From contig JAEMRJ010000068.1 in NCBI GenBank assembly GCA_016463365.1, positions 1-12,237 on the forward strand: 12,237 bases of DNA. Reading direction: 5' to 3'. The stretch's first letter is position 1. Each line of letters starts with the position of its first letter. Both the position numbers and the translations under genes were made by a program. The notes under the pieces were generated by a model that did not search any database, was not told the origin of the DNA, and worked only from the letters and a program-made list of their open reading frames with translations. This document shows, piece after piece, positions 4,979-10,655 of the stretch. Origin of the DNA: Thermoleophilaceae bacterium. GTDB taxonomy: Bacteria > Actinomycetota > Thermoleophilia > Solirubrobacterales > JACPNS01.

Positions 4979-5368
4979 ATGCACCGCATCCACAGCACCC
5001 GCAGTATCCGAGCCGCTGCGCTCAAGTCATTTGTCGGCCGCGAGGCCCCGCGCAGCATCCCGCCGGAAGTCTGCGAGGCCTGTTACTCGGATCTGGTCCA
5101 GCCGGTCGACGCCCAGGCGAATTCTGCCGGCACCGTGCGCATGACGCTTCGGTGCCCGGAGTGCGATCACGTGCGCGTCGGCGAGTGCAGCTGGGATGAA
5201 GCGCGCGCCTACGGGCGCCACTTCGCCGAGGGCAAGGCTCAGCTGCGTGGTCACTACGAGCAGCTGGCCGACGAGAATCTCCGCGCCGAGGTTGACTGCC
5301 TGGTTGTCGCGCTCCACACGGACCTGATCGGTCCGGACGACTTCGCGCCGTACCGCTACTCGGACTGA
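4979..5368 (+). CDS. Small four-cysteine protein, putative zinc ribbon, function unknown
   Basis: A 129-residue soluble protein that I do not recognise. It carries two Cys pairs, CEAC (32-35) and CPEC (59-62), spaced as in a zinc ribbon, plus a lone C70. The N-terminal ~25 residues are basic; the C-terminal half is helical-looking and acidic, with no membrane segment or signal peptide. The ATG at 4979 is supported by GAGGGGG about 10 nt upstream. It is a single gene behind the tRNA terminator, and its last 13 nt overlap the 3' end of the convergent DUF4349 gene, with no terminator between them. A regulatory or metal-binding role is possible but not shown. Confidence 0.75.
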   Translation: MHRIHSTRSIRAAALKSFVGREAPRSIPPEVCEACYSDLVQPVDAQANSAGTVRMTLRCPECDHVRVGECSWDEARAYGRHFAEGKAQLRGHYEQLADENLRAEVDCLVVALHTDLIGPDDFAPYRYSD

Positions 5369-6540
5369 GCAGCGGCGGAGGCGTCAATCGTGCGCTCGGA
5401 ACGGCCACGATTCCAGCGGCGCATTCCGAGCAGGGCCAGGCCGACGATCAGCGCCGGCGGAATCAGCACCGCAAGCGCCACGATCACCACGGCGGCGATC
5501 GCCGTGAGAATCTCACCCGCCCTGTCAAAGGCCTTCGCGATCTCGCCCTTGTCCTTGTCTGCCGCACTCGTGTCGGCGACGATCGTGAGCGCGATCGGGA
5601 CGTAGTTCACGCGCGCGCGGTTTGCACGCACCTGACCGGTGGCCTGGCGCAGGGCGGCCTTGGCGCTTGAGAGCTGCCTGCGCAGGATGATGCGCTGCGC
5701 GTCGGTCTGCGCGGCGGCGAGCTGGTCCTCGAGCCGGTTCACACGCGCCGTCCAGCGCCTGAGTTCACGCTCTGCGGAATTCACGGTGGTCGTGATGTCC
5801 TCGCTCGACTGAGAGCGTGAGCGGACGTGGGCGAGCTTTGACAGCGACGCGAGGGTCACCTTGTACTGCGCGGCGGGGATCATCAGTTGAAAACTCGCCC
5901 GTCCGCGGTTGCCTTCGCCCGCGCGCACGCTTGACTGCGCGACGTATCCGCCGTACTTGTCGACGATCGCGTTCACGCGGTCAGCGAGACGCTCGATCTC
6001 GTCGCCGTCGGCGGCGAGCGTGAGGCGGGTTTCGCGGGCGACATCGCGGGGCTGACCCGCTGACGTGACGCCGGGAGGGTTGGGCGCGACGCTCTGGAGT
6101 GATTCGACAGAATCGGCTGCGCCCGACTGGTCGCCGGCCACGGACTTCTGGACCGTTGAAGGCGCTTCGGCCGCGCCGAGTGAATTGTTGGTGGATGCGT
6201 CGGGCATCGGCCGGCCTGCGTCGTCTCCAGAGTTGTAGTCCCCCGTTCCGAGCCCTACCGCAACCACCGCGCCGCAGAGCACGATGAGGCCACACACCCC
6301 GGCGAACGCCGGCTTGAAGATCATCCGCTCGCGTGGCCGCTTCGCGCCGAGCGCTTCCTTGACCCGGGCGTCGAGCGCCGCGGCTTCGGCGTGATCGGGC
6401 AGCGGCCGCGCGTTGCGAACCAGCAGAGCGAAATCCGTCAGCGCAGCATCTTCAGGACGAACCTCTCCCCCTCCGCGAACGATCGCATCGATCACTTCAA
6501 GTTCGTGGGCACTGGCCTCGTCAATCTTCTCAGAGAACAT
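5356..6540 (-). CDS. DUF4349 membrane protein, probable anti-sigma partner
   Basis: A 394-residue protein. Residues 1-75 form a soluble, acidic N-terminal region without the HxxxCxxC zinc motif of classic anti-sigma factors. TM1 is about 77-98, followed by a Ser/Asn/Ala/Pro-rich linker (100-165). The DUF4349 region (about 168-373) starts RETRLTLAADGDEIERLADR and contains a coiled coil at 255-305; a C-terminal hydrophobic segment (344-372) ends in a basic tail. The ATG at 6540 is preferred because AGGAAG sits 8 nt upstream; a TTG two codons earlier is also in frame. The start overlaps the end of the sigma factor gene by 11 nt, indicating coupled translation. The anti-sigma role is inferred from that coupling and the layout; the biochemical role of DUF4349 is not established to my knowledge. 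Confidence 0.85.
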   Translation of the reverse strand: MFSEKIDEASAHELEVIDAIVRGGGEVRPEDAALTDFALLVRNARPLPDHAEAAALDARVKEALGAKRPRERMIFKPAFAGVCGLIVLCGAVVAVGLGTGDYNSGDDAGRPMPDASTNNSLGAAEAPSTVQKSVAGDQSGAADSVESLQSVAPNPPGVTSAGQPRDVARETRLTLAADGDEIERLADRVNAIVDKYGGYVAQSSVRAGEGNRGRASFQLMIPAAQYKVTLASLSKLAHVRSRSQSSEDITTTVNSAERELRRWTARVNRLEDQLAAAQTDAQRIILRRQLSSAKAALRQATGQVRANRARVNYVPIALTIVADTSAADKDKGEIAKAFDRAGEILTAIAAVVIVALAVLIPPALIVGLALLGMRRWNRGRSERTIDASAAAQSE

Positions 6541-7072
6541 TTTCAATGCTTCCTATCTCTGCACGCAAACGCGAGATCGCGCGGTGCAGCTGGGTTCCGA
6601 CGTTTGAGCTCGAGATCCCGAGAACGCGACCGATCTGGGCATTCTCGAGCCCGGCGAAGAACTTCAGGGCCACCAGTTCGCGCTCGCGAGCCTGGAGGCG
6701 ACGCATCGCGTCCGCGACGAGCAGCCGGTCGTCGCTTGCCCGGTCAACGCTGAAGGCACCGACAGATTCGGGCACGAGTTCGAGCGCAGACTCTCGTCCG
6801 CCCCTTCTCAGTTCATCGACCGCTGCGTTACGCGCAATCGAGAAGAGCCAGCCGCGCAGGTCTCCGCGACCGGGCTTGAACAGCGAGCGTTTGCGAAATG
6901 CCCGCTCGAACGCCTGTGCCGTGATCTCCTCGGCGAGTGACCGGTCTCCCACCAGGTAGGTGAGATACGCAAAAAGGTCGTCGCGCGAATCTCTGTAGAG
7001 CGCGTCGAAGGCCTGGGGCTCTGGTGGTGCGGTCGCGACCGGCACCGTGGCTGTCTGGTCCGTTTCTGGCAT
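6530..7072 (-). CDS. ECF-type RNA polymerase sigma factor
   Basis: A 180-residue sigma-70 family protein of ECF size. Region 2 spans about 22-91 (FDALYRDSRDDLFAYLTYLV, later LRGWLFSIARNAAVDELRR), which binds core polymerase and the -10 element. Region 4 spans about 117-172, with the helix-turn-helix QIGRVLGISSSNVGTQLHRA. There is a short Thr/Ala/Pro-rich N-terminal tail. The ATG at 7072 has no obvious Shine-Dalgarno and no convincing TANNNT box or ECF-type promoter upstream, so how it is expressed is unclear. It is followed by an overlapping DUF4349 membrane gene, which suggests membrane-signal control of the sigma factor. The target genes cannot be told from the window. Confidence 0.93.
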   Translation of the reverse strand: MPETDQTATVPVATAPPEPQAFDALYRDSRDDLFAYLTYLVGDRSLAEEITAQAFERAFRKRSLFKPGRGDLRGWLFSIARNAAVDELRRGGRESALELVPESVGAFSVDRASDDRLLVADAMRRLQARERELVALKFFAGLENAQIGRVLGISSSNVGTQLHRAISRLRAEIGSIENVL

Positions 7073-7171: not shown

Positions 7172-8164
7172 TCAGCCGGCGTGCGCCGCGAGCACCTCGG
7201 GCAGCGCCTGCTCGTACCACTGCCAGGTGGCAGCAAGTCCATCGGTGAGCGACCACGACGGCTTCCATCCCAGTCGCTCCTCGATCAGGGTCGAGTCGAG
7301 GTACTGGCGGTCGATCTCGCCTGCAGGAACGCCGTCGCCCTGCACGTCCGGCTCGACAGAACTTCCGGCGACTTCAACCATCGTGCGCACTATGTCGAGC
7401 ACCGACCACGGGCGGCCGGCGCCGGCGTTGAAAGCCACCCCGATGTTGACTGGATCGTTGAGTCCGTCGGCGATCGTGAGGTAGGCGTCGACCGCATCGG
7501 CCGCATAGATGAAGTCGCGCTCGGGCGAGCCGTCCGAGCGGATCACGGGGGCTTCGCCGGCGTTGATCGCGCGAGCGGTCTCTGGAACCAGTCGCGAGAA
7601 ATTGAAGTCGCCGCCGCCGTAGACGTTTGCCAGGCGCGTGACTGCGACAGGCAGGCCGTAGGTCTCGGCATATGAGCGCGAGACAAGATCGGCCGCGGCC
7701 TTCGATGTGTCGTAAGGATATGTCGGCTGCAGCTTCGCGTCCTCGCGGTACGGCAGTTCTTCGTGCTGCCCGTAGGCCTTGTCGCTGGATGCGACGACGA
7801 CGCGCTCGACGGTCGGCGCCAGGCGCGCCGCCTCAAGCAGGTTGTAGGTGCCGCGGATGTTGGTCTCGAAGGTCGAGAGCGGCGACCTGTTCGCGACCGC
7901 GACTATCGCCTGCGCCGCGAGGTGAAAAACCGTGGTCACGCCGTACTCGTTGAGCACGCGCAGCAGCGACTGGTGATCCGAGAGGTCGCCTTGGGCGACG
8001 CTGCACGAGGCCTCGTTGCCTTCGAGCACGATCAACGAATGCGCCGGGCGGTCGCGGCGCAGAATCACGACCTCAGCGCCCTCTGCAAGCAGTCGCTGCG
8101 TCAGGTGACCGCCGATGAATCCGTAGGCGCCGGTTACGAACGCGACCTCTCCCCTGCGGCTCAT
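7172..8164 (-). CDS. rfbG: NAD-dependent sugar dehydratase, CDP-glucose 4,6-dehydratase-like
   Basis: Extended short-chain dehydrogenase of 330 residues. The Rossmann motif is GAYGFIG (12-18), the segment ASSDKAYG (125-132) resembles that of CDP-glucose dehydratases, and the catalytic pair is Y151-xxx-K155 (PYDTSK). Predicted reaction: CDP-glucose to CDP-4-keto-6-deoxyglucose, the entry point to 6-deoxy and 3,6-dideoxy sugars of cell-surface glycans. The assignment rests on the motifs plus the adjacent cytidylyltransferase; another NDP-sugar epimerase/dehydratase specificity is possible. The ATG at 8164 overlaps the previous stop as ATGA, with GGGGG about 7 nt upstream; the frame stays open further upstream but that region is the end of rfbF. 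No later pathway genes are in the window. Confidence 0.85.
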   Translation of the reverse strand: MSRRGEVAFVTGAYGFIGGHLTQRLLAEGAEVVILRRDRPAHSLIVLEGNEASCSVAQGDLSDHQSLLRVLNEYGVTTVFHLAAQAIVAVANRSPLSTFETNIRGTYNLLEAARLAPTVERVVVASSDKAYGQHEELPYREDAKLQPTYPYDTSKAAADLVSRSYAETYGLPVAVTRLANVYGGGDFNFSRLVPETARAINAGEAPVIRSDGSPERDFIYAADAVDAYLTIADGLNDPVNIGVAFNAGAGRPWSVLDIVRTMVEVAGSSVEPDVQGDGVPAGEIDRQYLDSTLIEERLGWKPSWSLTDGLAATWQWYEQALPEVLAAHAG

Positions 8165-8916
8165 CGCGGGCCCCCGAGTGCGGCGGCCTGCTGGGCGAGC
8201 CATGGCGGCGTGCCGGCTGCGCAGAGCCGGTTCAGTTCGAGCGCGTCCTTGAAGGTGTCCATGCAGTCCCAGAAGCCGTCGTGCTTGTAGGCGTGCAGCT
8301 CTTCTGCGGCCGCAAGATTCTCGAGCGGACGCTGCTCAAGGATGTCGTCCGCGGAGATGAACTCGAGCGCGCCGTCCTCCAGGAACATGAAGCCGCCATT
8401 GATCCAATTCTCCAGCTGCGGCTTTTCGACAAAACCGGTGACGCGATCGTCGTCGCCGAGCTGCGCCTCGCCCCAGGGGCTGCGCGGACGGGTGACGGCG
8501 ATCGTCGCAAGGCCGCCATGTTCACGGTGGAATTCGAGCTCGGCCGTGAGGTCGATGTCGGCGACGCCGTCGGCATAGGTCAGGGCGAATGTCTCGCCGC
8601 GCAACCGCTCGCGCACGGCGTGGACACGTCCGCCTGTGGGGGTGTCTTCGCCGGTGTCTACGCACTCGGCAGTCCAGGCGCCAGAGACGATCTGCGGAAA
8701 TTCGGCGACGGAACTGGCAACCTGCTCAGAGCGCCAGCCGGTCAGGAGCAGAAAGTCGTTGAAGCCCTGCGCCGCATAAAGCGCCATCACATGCCAGAGG
8801 ATCGGGCGCTCGCCAACCTGCACAAGCGGCTTGGGCGCGTCCTCATCGCCGCGCGCGATGCGCGTGCCGCGCCCCCCGCAGAGGATCGCGACGCGCGGCG
8901 CCTTGCCGTCGGACAT
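8161..8916 (-). CDS. rfbF: Glucose-1-phosphate cytidylyltransferase
   Basis: Makes CDP-glucose from CTP and glucose-1-phosphate. The 251-residue nucleotidyltransferase has GGRGTR (14-19) and KP (29-30) of the NTP-binding signature, the RfbF-type strings VDTGEDTPTGGR (86-97) and YADGVADIDL (114-123), then FVEKP (162-166), WINGGFMF (171-178) and FWDCMDT (215-221). Length is close to the family norm. The ATG at 8916 is chosen because the upstream in-frame TTG (8937) overlaps the carrier gene; GGAA about 8 nt upstream is a weak ribosome site. The gene starts 14 nt after the sulfur carrier gene and overlaps the dehydratase-like gene by 4 nt, so all are probably in one operon. Confidence 0.92.
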   Translation of the reverse strand: MSDGKAPRVAILCGGRGTRIARGDEDAPKPLVQVGERPILWHVMALYAAQGFNDFLLLTGWRSEQVASSVAEFPQIVSGAWTAECVDTGEDTPTGGRVHAVRERLRGETFALTYADGVADIDLTAELEFHREHGGLATIAVTRPRSPWGEAQLGDDDRVTGFVEKPQLENWINGGFMFLEDGALEFISADDILEQRPLENLAAAEELHAYKHDGFWDCMDTFKDALELNRLCAAGTPPWLAQQAAALGGPR

Positions 8917-8930
8917 CTTTCGTTCCGGCT

Positions 8931-9209
8931 CTAGCAACCGCCGGCAACGGCCGGCAGGATCGTGACTTCGGAGCCGTCCGCGACGCTGGTCTGGAGGCCG
9001 TCGCCGAAGCGGATGTCTTCATCGGCGACGTAGACGTTCACGAAGCGGCGGAGTTCGCCGTTCTCACTGATGCGATCCTGCAGATCAGGAAATTTGGCAT
9101 AGAGCGCATCGAGCACTTCAGAGACGGTGCCGCCGGTTTCAATCGAGACGGTTGCCTGATTGTCGACGACTGGGCGCAGCTGCGCGGGGATCTTGACGGT
9201 TACTGCCAT
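8931..9209 (-). CDS. CysO-like ubiquitin-fold sulfur carrier ending in Gly-Gly-Cys
   Basis: A 92-residue MoaD/ThiS-family beta-grasp protein. From memory it resembles mycobacterial CysO closely in its second half (RFVNVYVADEDIRF, 55-68, and EVTILPAVAGG, 81-91). Such carriers are adenylated at the terminal Gly and converted to a thiocarboxylate that donates sulfur. Here the reading frame adds one more residue, C92, before TAG, so the diglycine is not free; a JAMM/Mec-type protease would have to remove it before activation. The ATG at 9209 has AGGAGG 11 nt upstream, overlapping the stop codon of the threonine-synthase-like gene (TAGGAGG). Position second in a SAM-riboswitch operon points to methionine/cysteine sulfur transfer rather than thiamine or molybdopterin synthesis. 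Confidence 0.92.
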   Translation of the reverse strand: MAVTVKIPAQLRPVVDNQATVSIETGGTVSEVLDALYAKFPDLQDRISENGELRRFVNVYVADEDIRFGDGLQTSVADGSEVTILPAVAGGC

Positions 9210-9224
9210 GTCTGGTGCGTCCTC

Positions 9225-10457
9225 CTAGGCGGTGACGGGAGTGGGAACGAAATGGTTGAAGGCATCGACGGTCGGTTCGATCTCGTACTTCTCGAACGTA
9301 CCGCGTGCGGCGTCGAGAGTCTTGAGACCTTCGCCGGTGACGTAGACGACAACCGTCTCGTCGGGGTCGATCTCGCCGCGCTCGGCGATCTTCTTGAGGC
9401 TTGCCACGGTCACGCCGCCGGCGGTCTCGGTGAAGACTCCGGTGGTGTGGGCGAGCAGCTTGATGCCGTAGCGGATCTCGTCGTCGGTGACCTGCTCGAT
9501 GCTGCCGCCAGTCTCGCGCGCGACGTCGAGCGCGTACGGTCCGTCGGCGGGGTTGCCGATTGCCAGCGACTTTGCGATCGTGTCGGGCTTGACCGGCTTG
9601 CAGTAGTCGACGCCGGTCTCAAACGCGTTTGCGACCGGGTTGCACCCAGTTGCCTGCGCGCCATGGAAGATCGGCGTCTTGCCCTCGACAATTCCAAGGT
9701 CGATCCACTCGTTGAAGCCCTTGTAGAGCTTGGTGAACAGCGAGCCAGAGGCGATCGGCGAAACGATGCGGTCCGGCAGCTTCCAGCCGAGTTGTTCCAT
9801 CGCCTCGTAGGCCAGGGTCTTGGAGCCCTCGCTGTAGTACGGCCTCATGTTGATGTTCACGAAGGCCCAGTCGTACTCGGCCGAGAGCTCGGTGCAAAGA
9901 CGGTTGACGTCGTCGTAGTTGCCCTTGACGCCGACGAGCTCGGTGCCATACACGCCGGTCGCGAGGATCTTCTGCTCTTCGAGGTCTGTCGGGATGAAGA
10001 CGTAGCTGTCGAGGCCGGCGGCGGCGGCGTGCGCTGCCACGGCGTTGGCGAGGTTTCCGGTGGAGGCGCAGGCGATCACTTCGTAGCCGAGCTCCTGAGC
10101 CTTTGCCATCGCGACGCTGACCACGCGGTCCTTGAAGGAGTGCGTGGGGTTTGACGCCTCGTTCTTCACGTAGACGTTCTTCAGGCCGCCGAGGTACTCG
10201 CCCAGGCGCGGCGCGTGGATCAGCGGCGAGAGTCCCGTGGCCAGGCGCGACTTCGGGCGCTCGGTGAACGGGAGAAATTCGGAGTAACGCCAGATGCTCT
10301 GCGGACCAGACTGAATGGTTCGCTTCGCCTCTTCTGGGTCTATGCCTGAGTAGTCGTACTCGACTTCAAGCGGGCCGAAGCACTCGTCGCAGACAAACAG
10401 CGCCTCGAGCGGATACTTCTTGCCACATTCCTTACATTTGAGCGCATCTACAGCCAT
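9225..10457 (-). CDS. thrC: Threonine synthase family PLP enzyme (possible sulfhydrylase, see findings)
   Basis: Fold-type II PLP enzyme of 410 residues. Threonine synthase converts O-phosphohomoserine to threonine and phosphate. An N-terminal zinc ribbon (C8, C11, C23, C26: CKEC and CDEC) is followed by the PLP lysine in NPTHSFKDR (K109) and the phosphate loop STGN (132-135). The sequence agrees well with actinobacterial ThrC, including KSLAIGNPADGPY (296-308). The start ATG has AGAGG 7 nt upstream. The leader is a SAM-I riboswitch with terminator, and the next gene, 15 nt away, is a CysO-like sulfur carrier. Both are unusual for plain threonine synthesis and suggest it may instead, or also, use a thiocarboxylate as nucleophile. 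The family assignment is sure; the physiological reaction is not. Confidence 0.9.
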   Translation of the reverse strand: MAVDALKCKECGKKYPLEALFVCDECFGPLEVEYDYSGIDPEEAKRTIQSGPQSIWRYSEFLPFTERPKSRLATGLSPLIHAPRLGEYLGGLKNVYVKNEASNPTHSFKDRVVSVAMAKAQELGYEVIACASTGNLANAVAAHAAAAGLDSYVFIPTDLEEQKILATGVYGTELVGVKGNYDDVNRLCTELSAEYDWAFVNINMRPYYSEGSKTLAYEAMEQLGWKLPDRIVSPIASGSLFTKLYKGFNEWIDLGIVEGKTPIFHGAQATGCNPVANAFETGVDYCKPVKPDTIAKSLAIGNPADGPYALDVARETGGSIEQVTDDEIRYGIKLLAHTTGVFTETAGGVTVASLKKIAERGEIDPDETVVVYVTGEGLKTLDAARGTFEKYEIEPTVDAFNHFVPTPVTA

Positions 10458-10488
10458 TTGAAACCTCTATTCACTTGCGTCCTTAACG

Positions 10489-10519
10489 AAAAAACCCTCG
10501 ACCGGATGGGCCGAAGGTT
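10489..10519 (-). terminator. Riboswitch expression-platform terminator in the thrC leader
   Basis: On the minus strand AACCTTCGGCC pairs with GGTCGAGGGTT (11 bp with two G-U pairs, loop CATCC), and the run TTTTTT occupies 10494-10489. It lies between promoter and gene with no minus-strand gene upstream, so it acts as an attenuator. The alternative antiterminator pairs CGAAG (10536-10532) with CUUCG (10516-10512) and GAUG (10544-10541) with CAUC (10508-10505), thereby using up P1 of the aptamer. Confidence 0.9.
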
Positions 10520-10538
10520 CACAAGGTGAGTCTTCGTC

Positions 10539-10638
10539 CACATCTCTAGCCGACTGTCGGCTCTGGAATTGGCACCTTTTGCTTGCGCAATGGTTGCCGG
10601 AGTGTCATCGGGCCAGTCCCTCGACTCCTCTGGATGCG
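10539..10638 (-). promoter_or_regulatory. SAM-I (S-box) riboswitch aptamer
   Basis: The minus strand shows the S-box core GGGACTGGCCCGATGA, then CCGGCAACC and AAGGTGCCAATTCCAG. P1 pairs CGCAUC (10638-10633) with GAUGUG (10544-10539). P2a pairs GGAGU (10628-10624) with ACUCC (10603-10599), with the kink-turn GAUGA. P3 is UUGC/GCAA with a GCAA tetraloop. P4 pairs AGCCGA (10562-10557) with UCGGCU (10553-10548). The pseudoknot pairs CUGG in the P2 loop with CCAG at 10566-10563. It binds S-adenosylmethionine; with the downstream terminator it should turn the thrC operon off at high SAM. Confidence 0.95.
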
Positions 10639-10655
10639 TACAGCTATGTGGGGCA

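Follow-up and report, generated by a model that had tools for sequence, protein, structure and literature searches.

Why should a riboswitch that responds to S-adenosylmethionine (SAM) stand in front of a gene named threonine synthase? The question is raised by a 12,237-nt stretch of DNA (the window) from a Thermoleophilaceae bacterium (assembly GCA_016463365.1, contig JAEMRJ010000068.1), in which a SAM-I aptamer and an OFF-type terminator precede a gene of the threonine synthase (thrC) family, followed 15 nt later by the gene for a CysO-like sulfur carrier (Table 1). An initial annotation had picked out this arrangement, and database searches bear it out: the aptamer matches Rfam family RF00162, a terminator hairpin lies downstream of it, the enzyme is recognised by TIGR00260 and the carrier by Pfam ThiS, with 3dwg_C as its closest solved chain. 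It was further proposed that the enzyme might use the thiocarboxylated carrier to make homocysteine or, alternatively, cysteine; the genomic comparisons support the former, for which the chemistry is predicted, whereas the latter is weakened by a separate CysO gene beside an E1 gene in all 22 related genomes inventoried. We consider it probable, at roughly 87%, that the gene pair forms a metM-metO operon governed by a SAM-I OFF switch, the parts and conservation of which are observed here and the product of which would be homocysteine formed with carrier-borne sulfur. Such a route is already known in kind, as the MetM/MetO system of Streptomyces, and would here be found in another actinobacterial lineage.

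The leader joins an RF00162 match above the gathering score to an expression platform. The region just 3' of aptamer helix P1 is able to pair with the 5' arm of the terminator (a duplex of -17.4 kcal/mol, computed), and the leader is therefore laid out as an OFF switch, SAM binding and gene control being predicted from that layout. The CGAAG/CUUCG part of the antiterminator pairing also appears in the folded truncated transcript, where P1 is still formed. Folding of the 183-nt leader gave a z score of -2.36 relative to shuffles, four of 200 being equally good, and a scan of 2.1 kb gave four terminator-like sites, against 1.9 expected. Among 41 Thermoleophilia leaders, window counted, a hairpin beside a T run lies upstream of the start codon in 26, and 15 have no run of four or more T. 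The leader hairpin of many Thermoleophilia relatives takes the form CCTCCG...CGGAGG directly before the start codon, where, to judge from this survey, it may also mask the Shine-Dalgarno sequence.

The same arrangement is conserved among relatives, which were taken as the best 80 of 238 loci from a scan of genome contigs and comprise 40 loci from Thermoleophilia, the nearest being a Thermoleophilaceae metagenome-assembled genome (MAG; L001, 96% identical), and 40 from outside the Actinobacteria (L041-L080). A riboswitch precedes the gene in 38 of the 40 Thermoleophilia loci (22 by genome search and 16 of the 17 scanned directly); of the two without a call, the sequence of L010 stops 97 nt upstream and L032 lay outside the scan. 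A carrier is found downstream of the enzyme gene in 38 of the same 40. Pathway genes were inventoried in 22 genomes selected from these loci, all holding the window-type gene, and the inventory of the window's own genome is extrapolated from them. One RF00162 match was found in every one of the 22, each directly before the window-type gene (in 20 of the genomes scoring was limited to 108 of the first-look candidates). A second thrC, which the initial annotation had named as a point to check, is present in 21: matches above the cut-off number two in 20 genomes, three in G020 and one in G022. The gene for ThrB, strongly matched in 20 genomes (above the cut-off in 19), is on the same contig as this other thrC, lying within 300 bp of it in 19 and 1.5 kb away in G019.

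TIGR00260, the thrC equivalog model, matches the window enzyme at 300.2 bits against a cut-off of 167.1 (PF00291 gives 235.5 bits), and both this model and public database names call the family threonine synthase; as a Streptomyces-family protein (L200 type) likewise passes the cut-off at 266.0 bits, the model does not separate MetM from ThrC. In a tree of 81 selected proteins a 100/100 branch splits 70 window-type enzymes, two of them identical, from nine thrB-linked ThrC, the branches between groups being long and the positions of both outgroups unsure. The L200 protein (genome G149) shares 55% identity with the window enzyme; its top database match is 95% identical, and the organism-named entries among its 120 best matches are Streptomyces or Kitasatospora 'threonine synthase'. 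At that locus an RF00162 riboswitch precedes the enzyme match by 79 bp, and a carrier with the C terminus AVAGG follows 52 nt downstream; through L200, this Streptomyces-named family falls within the window-type branch and apart from ThrC.

With ThrC (TIGR00260; 1uim, 2d1f, 6cgq) the window enzyme shares its fold, its PLP (pyridoxal phosphate) lysine and its expected substrate, O-phosphohomoserine, but it is only 33-36% identical to the thrB-linked ThrC of ten relatives, and it differs in an N-terminal CxxC...CxxC segment, present in 118 of 119 window-type proteins including its own, and in its site residues. These were compared in an alignment of the 119 window-type proteins, some of them near-duplicates, with nine ThrC. 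T88, S155, R160 and N188 of Thermus thermophilus ThrC, which we take to be ligands of the substrate phosphate, are replaced by L136, N203, Y208 and S237, substitutions found in 118-119 of the 119 proteins (N203 in 118); these presumed ligands are not conserved in the window enzyme, and K163, N201 and the PLP lysine, K109 by motif, are kept. In window-type enzymes the site where phosphate and water are held while threonine is formed appears to have been rebuilt. The Pfam model NinF (PF05810) exceeds its cut-off on the CxxC segment of the window enzyme (30.6 against 27.5).

Hasebe and colleagues reportedly described, in 2024, homocysteine synthesis by MetM and MetO in Streptomyces albulus, with MetM using thiocarboxylated MetO. 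A literature search on the arrangement yielded one paper on MetM, PMC12172450, passages of which cite Hasebe et al. (2024) for MetM as the Streptomyces homocysteine synthase, place a SAM riboswitch upstream of S. albulus metM, give metO as the carrier gene there and state that the MetM substrate is O-phosphohomoserine. The window shares with that system a SAM riboswitch upstream, a thrC-like enzyme, which branches with the Streptomyces-named family, and an adjacent sulfur-carrier gene encoding a di-glycine with one extra residue, while a true thrC elsewhere in the genome is found in 21 of the 22 relatives. It differs in lineage, in its identity of about 55% to the Streptomyces-named family and in the additional C-terminal Cys of the carrier; the comparison is made through that family and not through the S. 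albulus sequences themselves, and the activity of the window enzyme is predicted. A second carrier-fed system, that of the Wolinella O-acetylhomoserine sulfhydrylase, has a carrier known as HcyS. There too, according to passages of PMC6271081, a carrier thiocarboxylate delivers sulfur for homocysteine; the enzyme, however, is O-acetylhomoserine sulfhydrylase where that of the window is a thrC relative, the partner gene belonging to PF00291 and not to the sulfhydrylase type of PF01053.

The carrier matches Pfam ThiS (PF02597) at 57.9 bits. Its closest solved chain, 3dwg_C (E 5.5e-21), is from an entry entitled 9.5 kDa culture filtrate antigen and corresponds to Mycobacterium tuberculosis CysO. 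Genes for the activation of such carriers are present throughout the 22 genomes: each has ThiF/E1 beside a ThiS-family carrier distinct from MetO (here called CysO), and each has a JAMM-type domain above the Pfam cut-off. The JAMM gene is within 6 kb of CysO in 16 genomes; in G011 the distance is 24 kb, in G017 the gene is divided between contig ends, and in the others of the remaining six it is on a different contig. A JAMM/Mec protease and an activator had been listed among the genes to look for in the initial annotation. The E1 of the nearest relative includes a rhodanese domain (PRK08762, 550 bits) and adjoins CysO and the JAMM gene. An apparent absence of CysO beside the JAMM gene, judged by the pattern AVAGG, was mistaken, as CysO there ends AMAGG. 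With the mycobacterial CysO/CysM/Mec/MoeZR pathway, as set out in passages of PMC3227635, the likeness extends to the carrier fold, E1-rhodanese activation, a PLP enzyme acting on an O-phospho amino acid and release by Mec; that pathway differs in that its product is cysteine, and the relatives carry a CysO-type carrier and E1 as separate genes.

Under the metM-metO reading, an E1-rhodanese protein, the gene for which lies next to CysO elsewhere in the genome, would adenylate and sulfurate the C-terminal glycine of the carrier, the extra Cys after the di-glycine being trimmed first, perhaps by the JAMM peptidase present in these genomes. MetM would remove phosphate from O-phosphohomoserine made by ThrB, and the MetO thiocarboxylate would attack the gamma carbon, in place of water at the beta carbon; homocysteine would arise first as a carrier adduct and then be set free. 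High SAM would stabilise the aptamer, free the terminator and turn the operon off, and threonine would be supplied by the second, thrB-linked ThrC.

A search for other routes to homocysteine gave a divided picture. PF01053, which covers enzymes of the MetB/C/Y/Z type, matches at 226 bits or more in 15 of the 22 genomes, and no full-length enzyme of this family was found in the other seven (G001-G004, G008, G016 and G018; best match at most 38.1 bits), which include the four nearest relatives and the complete chromosome G008 (L033, Conexibacter sp. DBS9H8). A MetX-like match of at least 313 bits occurs in seven genomes, each time adjoining a PF01053 gene, the model cut-off of 500 bits being reached in none of the 22 genomes nor in any control genome. 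DUF39 was found in 0 of the 22, and a MetE-like match above 390 bits in seven. On these profile matches, some members of Thermoleophilia seem to be without another known homocysteine route. The initial annotation had called for a check on metB, metY, metX and metZ; the combination that it had named as contrary to its proposal, a sole thrC alongside a complete conventional route to methionine, was not seen in the relatives, given their second thrC and the seven genomes poor in PF01053; a metX-metY pair is nonetheless present in seven.

In a wider survey, 198 evenly drawn actinobacterial genomes were searched. An RF00162 match was found in 103 (97 above the cut-off, with stricter filters), and 76 encode an enzyme of the window type (E no higher than 1e-70), the weakest, in G079, being 40% identical. 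RF00162 is present in 55 of the 76 genomes with the enzyme versus 48 of the 122 without. In 49 of the 76 it precedes the enzyme match at a distance of 6-266 bp, one of these (G156, at a contig start) scoring below the gathering score. A carrier was read within the fetched stretch in 30 of 39 further actinobacterial loci (L159-L189 and L200-L207). One such locus, L189 (NZ_LT559118.1), belongs to an 11.85-Mb Nonomuraea record filed as a plasmid in PLSDB, the size of which fits a chromosome. Outside the Actinobacteria the carrier lies downstream in 37 of the 40 loci, though 2-4 kb away in five, and the riboswitch was found in 10.

Several observations weigh against the metM-metO reading. The riboswitch was not found upstream of the enzyme in 27 of the 76 genomes, contig ends among them, and the carrier was not found in the fetched stretch of nine of the 39 further loci, one of these being the same gene as L028; four loci on one branch (L181, L184, L186 and L187) have neither upstream riboswitch nor adjacent carrier. 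Within Thermoleophilia an adjacent carrier was not found in two of the 40 loci, L020 (a Solirubrobacterales MAG) and L028 (Conexibacter sp. S30A1), where riboswitch and metM are present and where CysO may serve both pathways. The absence of PF01053 is an interpretation: five of the seven genomes have partial matches (26.8-38.1 bits) that attain the gathering score of 27 bits, in one only with neighbours, and these are taken as other PLP enzymes. Furthermore, G001-G004 are MAGs of unstated completeness, and the inventory covered neither MetH nor MetA. The metX-metY pairs, together with a PF01053 enzyme without MetX in eight more genomes, bring the genomes with such enzymes to 15 of 22, and MetM is therefore not the sole route everywhere. 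Finally, passages of PMC12172450 describe a homologue from Microcystis that shares 51.6% identity with S. albulus MetM and adjoins a metO-like gene; it was reported to act as threonine synthase and threonine deaminase, and methionine in the cells did not rise. The same passages mention an unidentified peak near methionine, both with and without added sulfide, and the assay components they describe include no thiocarboxylated carrier; MetM activity is therefore compatible with that result, in view of which a mixed function, in threonine and homocysteine synthesis, is possible.

An enzyme of this mixed kind, making homocysteine with the charged carrier and threonine without it, would overlap with the metM-metO reading, so that the odds of the two are not exclusive, and we regard it as unlikely. 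One substrate leads to both products, K163 and N201 are common to ThrC and the window type, and the Microcystis enzyme made threonine in an assay described without carrier (passages of PMC12172450), whereas the separate ThrC makes a dual role unnecessary and the four substrate-site positions are altered in almost every window-type protein. Considerably less probable is a genuine threonine synthase that is incidentally SAM-controlled, with the carrier serving another enzyme: passing the TIGR00260 cut-off and the threonine synthase activity on O-phosphohomoserine reported for the Microcystis homologue in excerpts of PMC12172450 would suit it, yet in 19 of the 22 relatives the second thrC has thrB no more than 300 bp away, the substrate-site residues have changed, these genomes yielded no SAM-I switch other than the one at this locus, and the Streptomyces relative is named as a homocysteine synthase in the same excerpts. 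Highly improbable is a role in making cysteine from O-phosphoserine with the carrier, even though CysO is the nearest solved relative of the carrier and SAM-I switches can also govern genes for cysteine. By its scores the enzyme belongs with ThrC and not CysM, outside the cysteine synthase family (cysKM, 40.1 bits against a cut-off of 344.15); with a separate CysO-type carrier beside the E1 gene in 22 of 22 relatives, cysteine is a less likely product; and in L089, the sole cluster scanned for it, a cysteine-synthase-like gene follows CysO (cysKM 344.1 bits, marginally below the cut-off). Just as improbable is a carrier for molybdopterin or thiamin synthesis placed here by chance, as database names for such carriers (MoaD family or molybdopterin factor) would suggest, against which stand its recurrence downstream of the enzyme within and beyond Thermoleophilia and the further ThiS-family genes of the same genomes.

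The carrier ends in AVAGG-C, one residue beyond the di-glycine (window 8931-8936), a feature absent from the initial annotation. Among the 120 homologues listed of 7997 matched, window counted, 62 end in GG, 50 in GGC, four in GGA, three in GGS and one in GGR, Cys being the commonest residue after GG; both the MetO and the CysO carriers of L001-L080 have variable tails after GG, mostly of one or two residues. In the 22 Thermoleophilia genomes a tail is present on nine of the 20 readable MetO and 18 of the 21 readable CysO. As Mec releases cysteine from a CysO-cysteine adduct in mycobacteria (passages of PMC3227635), the GG-Cys end could, by analogy, be trimmed by a Mec-like JAMM peptidase, the JAMM motif being seen in 16 of the 22 genomes, with the gene outside the fetched stretch or cut in the other six. 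Against this idea, other tails (R, Q, A) exist, and an association of MetO and CysO tails, as might follow from shared trimming, is not supported: in 19 genomes both are tailed in eight, CysO only in eight, MetO only in one and neither in two (Fisher p 1.0). The plain alternative is an ordinary carboxypeptidase.

Outside the Actinobacteria a further gene, encoding an 80-aa NIL-domain protein, was found in 34 of the 40 loci (by tblastn; Pfam-confirmed for seven), for instance at L049:6347-6586 and L041:6623-6868; in 28 it separates enzyme from carrier, in six it follows the carrier, and none was found in the 80 actinobacterial stretches searched, some of which were short. The FCPU426 locus L041 reads riboswitch, metM, carrier, NIL gene, a weak, partial match to ThiF (23.1 bits, below its cut-off of 28.1), a PALP gene and a DsbA-like gene. 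A gap of about 400 nt in Chloroflexi, at first taken for a JAMM gene, holds the NIL-domain gene, and the idea that NIL gene and riboswitch are mutually exclusive controls was rejected, as both occur in eight of the 40 loci. NIL-domain proteins have been tied to homocysteine formation in Methanosarcina (passages of PMC5764234), and the recurrence of one beside metM is a likeness to the DUF39/NIL route of methanogens and Desulfovibrio; by contrast with that route, DUF39 is missing from the Thermoleophilia inventory and the NIL gene from every fetched actinobacterial stretch. Among the 15 papers listed by a literature search, of 72 matching two or more terms, none joined 'NIL domain' with 'sulfur carrier'. 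A joint reading of tails and NIL genes, which we hold as doubtful, is that the carrier is a masked pro-form, its GG-Cys end resembling CysO-Cys, and that one JAMM peptidase and one E1 would act on CysO and MetO alike, tying methionine to cysteine synthesis; outside the Actinobacteria the NIL-domain protein might be a third subunit, as a homocysteine-site or methionine-sensing partner, kept where the SAM switch is usually absent.

Table 1. Features of the candidate metM-metO operon, in window coordinates
Feature	Position	Strand	Evidence
SAM-I (S-box) riboswitch aptamer	10537..10640	-	Rfam SAM RF00162, 84.6 bits (gathering score 44.4), E 2.8e-19, full length 1-108
Candidate antiterminator 5' arm	10532..10539	-	Overlaps 3' strand of aptamer helix P1; partner 10516-10509; predicted role
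Intrinsic terminator hairpin, then U tract	10492..10520	-	12 pairs, loop of 5, T-rich tail
Shine-Dalgarno AGAGG of thrC-family gene	10464..10468	-	Sequence
thrC-family PLP enzyme gene, 410 aa, assigned as probable MetM-type homocysteine synthase	9225..10457	-	TIGR00260, PF00291, tree branch, site residues
Shine-Dalgarno AGGAGGA of carrier gene, overlapping stop of enzyme gene	9220..9226	-	Sequence
Probable MetO-type ThiS/MoaD-fold sulfur carrier gene, 92 aa	8931..9209	-	PF02597, 3dwg_C, tail survey

Other genes lie around the operon. Directly after the carrier, on the same strand, are nucleotidyltransferase-family and NAD epimerase-family genes (7172-8937), which may be co-transcribed with it, the earliest start of the first open reading frame overlapping the end of the carrier gene. 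A Sigma-70-family factor resembling the extracytoplasmic function group, followed by a DUF4349 protein, occupies 5356-7072, and adjacent open reading frames on the minus strand at 446-2004 read by eye as aspartate carbamoyltransferase (pyrB) and PyrR.

The analysis adds the occurrence of the arrangement across Thermoleophilia and in other phyla, some of which may already be published, the finding of one SAM-I switch per genome, and what looks like a lack of other routes in some relatives. The puzzle of a riboswitch before a 'threonine synthase' becomes a recognisable methionine operon, and a MetM-type route is on offer for those Thermoleophilia genomes that otherwise seem to be without one to homocysteine. 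The standard thrC model apparently gives the name threonine synthase to a widespread family whose members, those of Streptomyces included, are probably homocysteine synthases, and the residue signature STGNL, NxRPYYxEGSKT and ASGS could let databases tell MetM-type enzymes from ThrC. The NIL gene and the tails beyond the di-glycine, likewise, are leads on the maturation and regulation of carrier-fed pathways.

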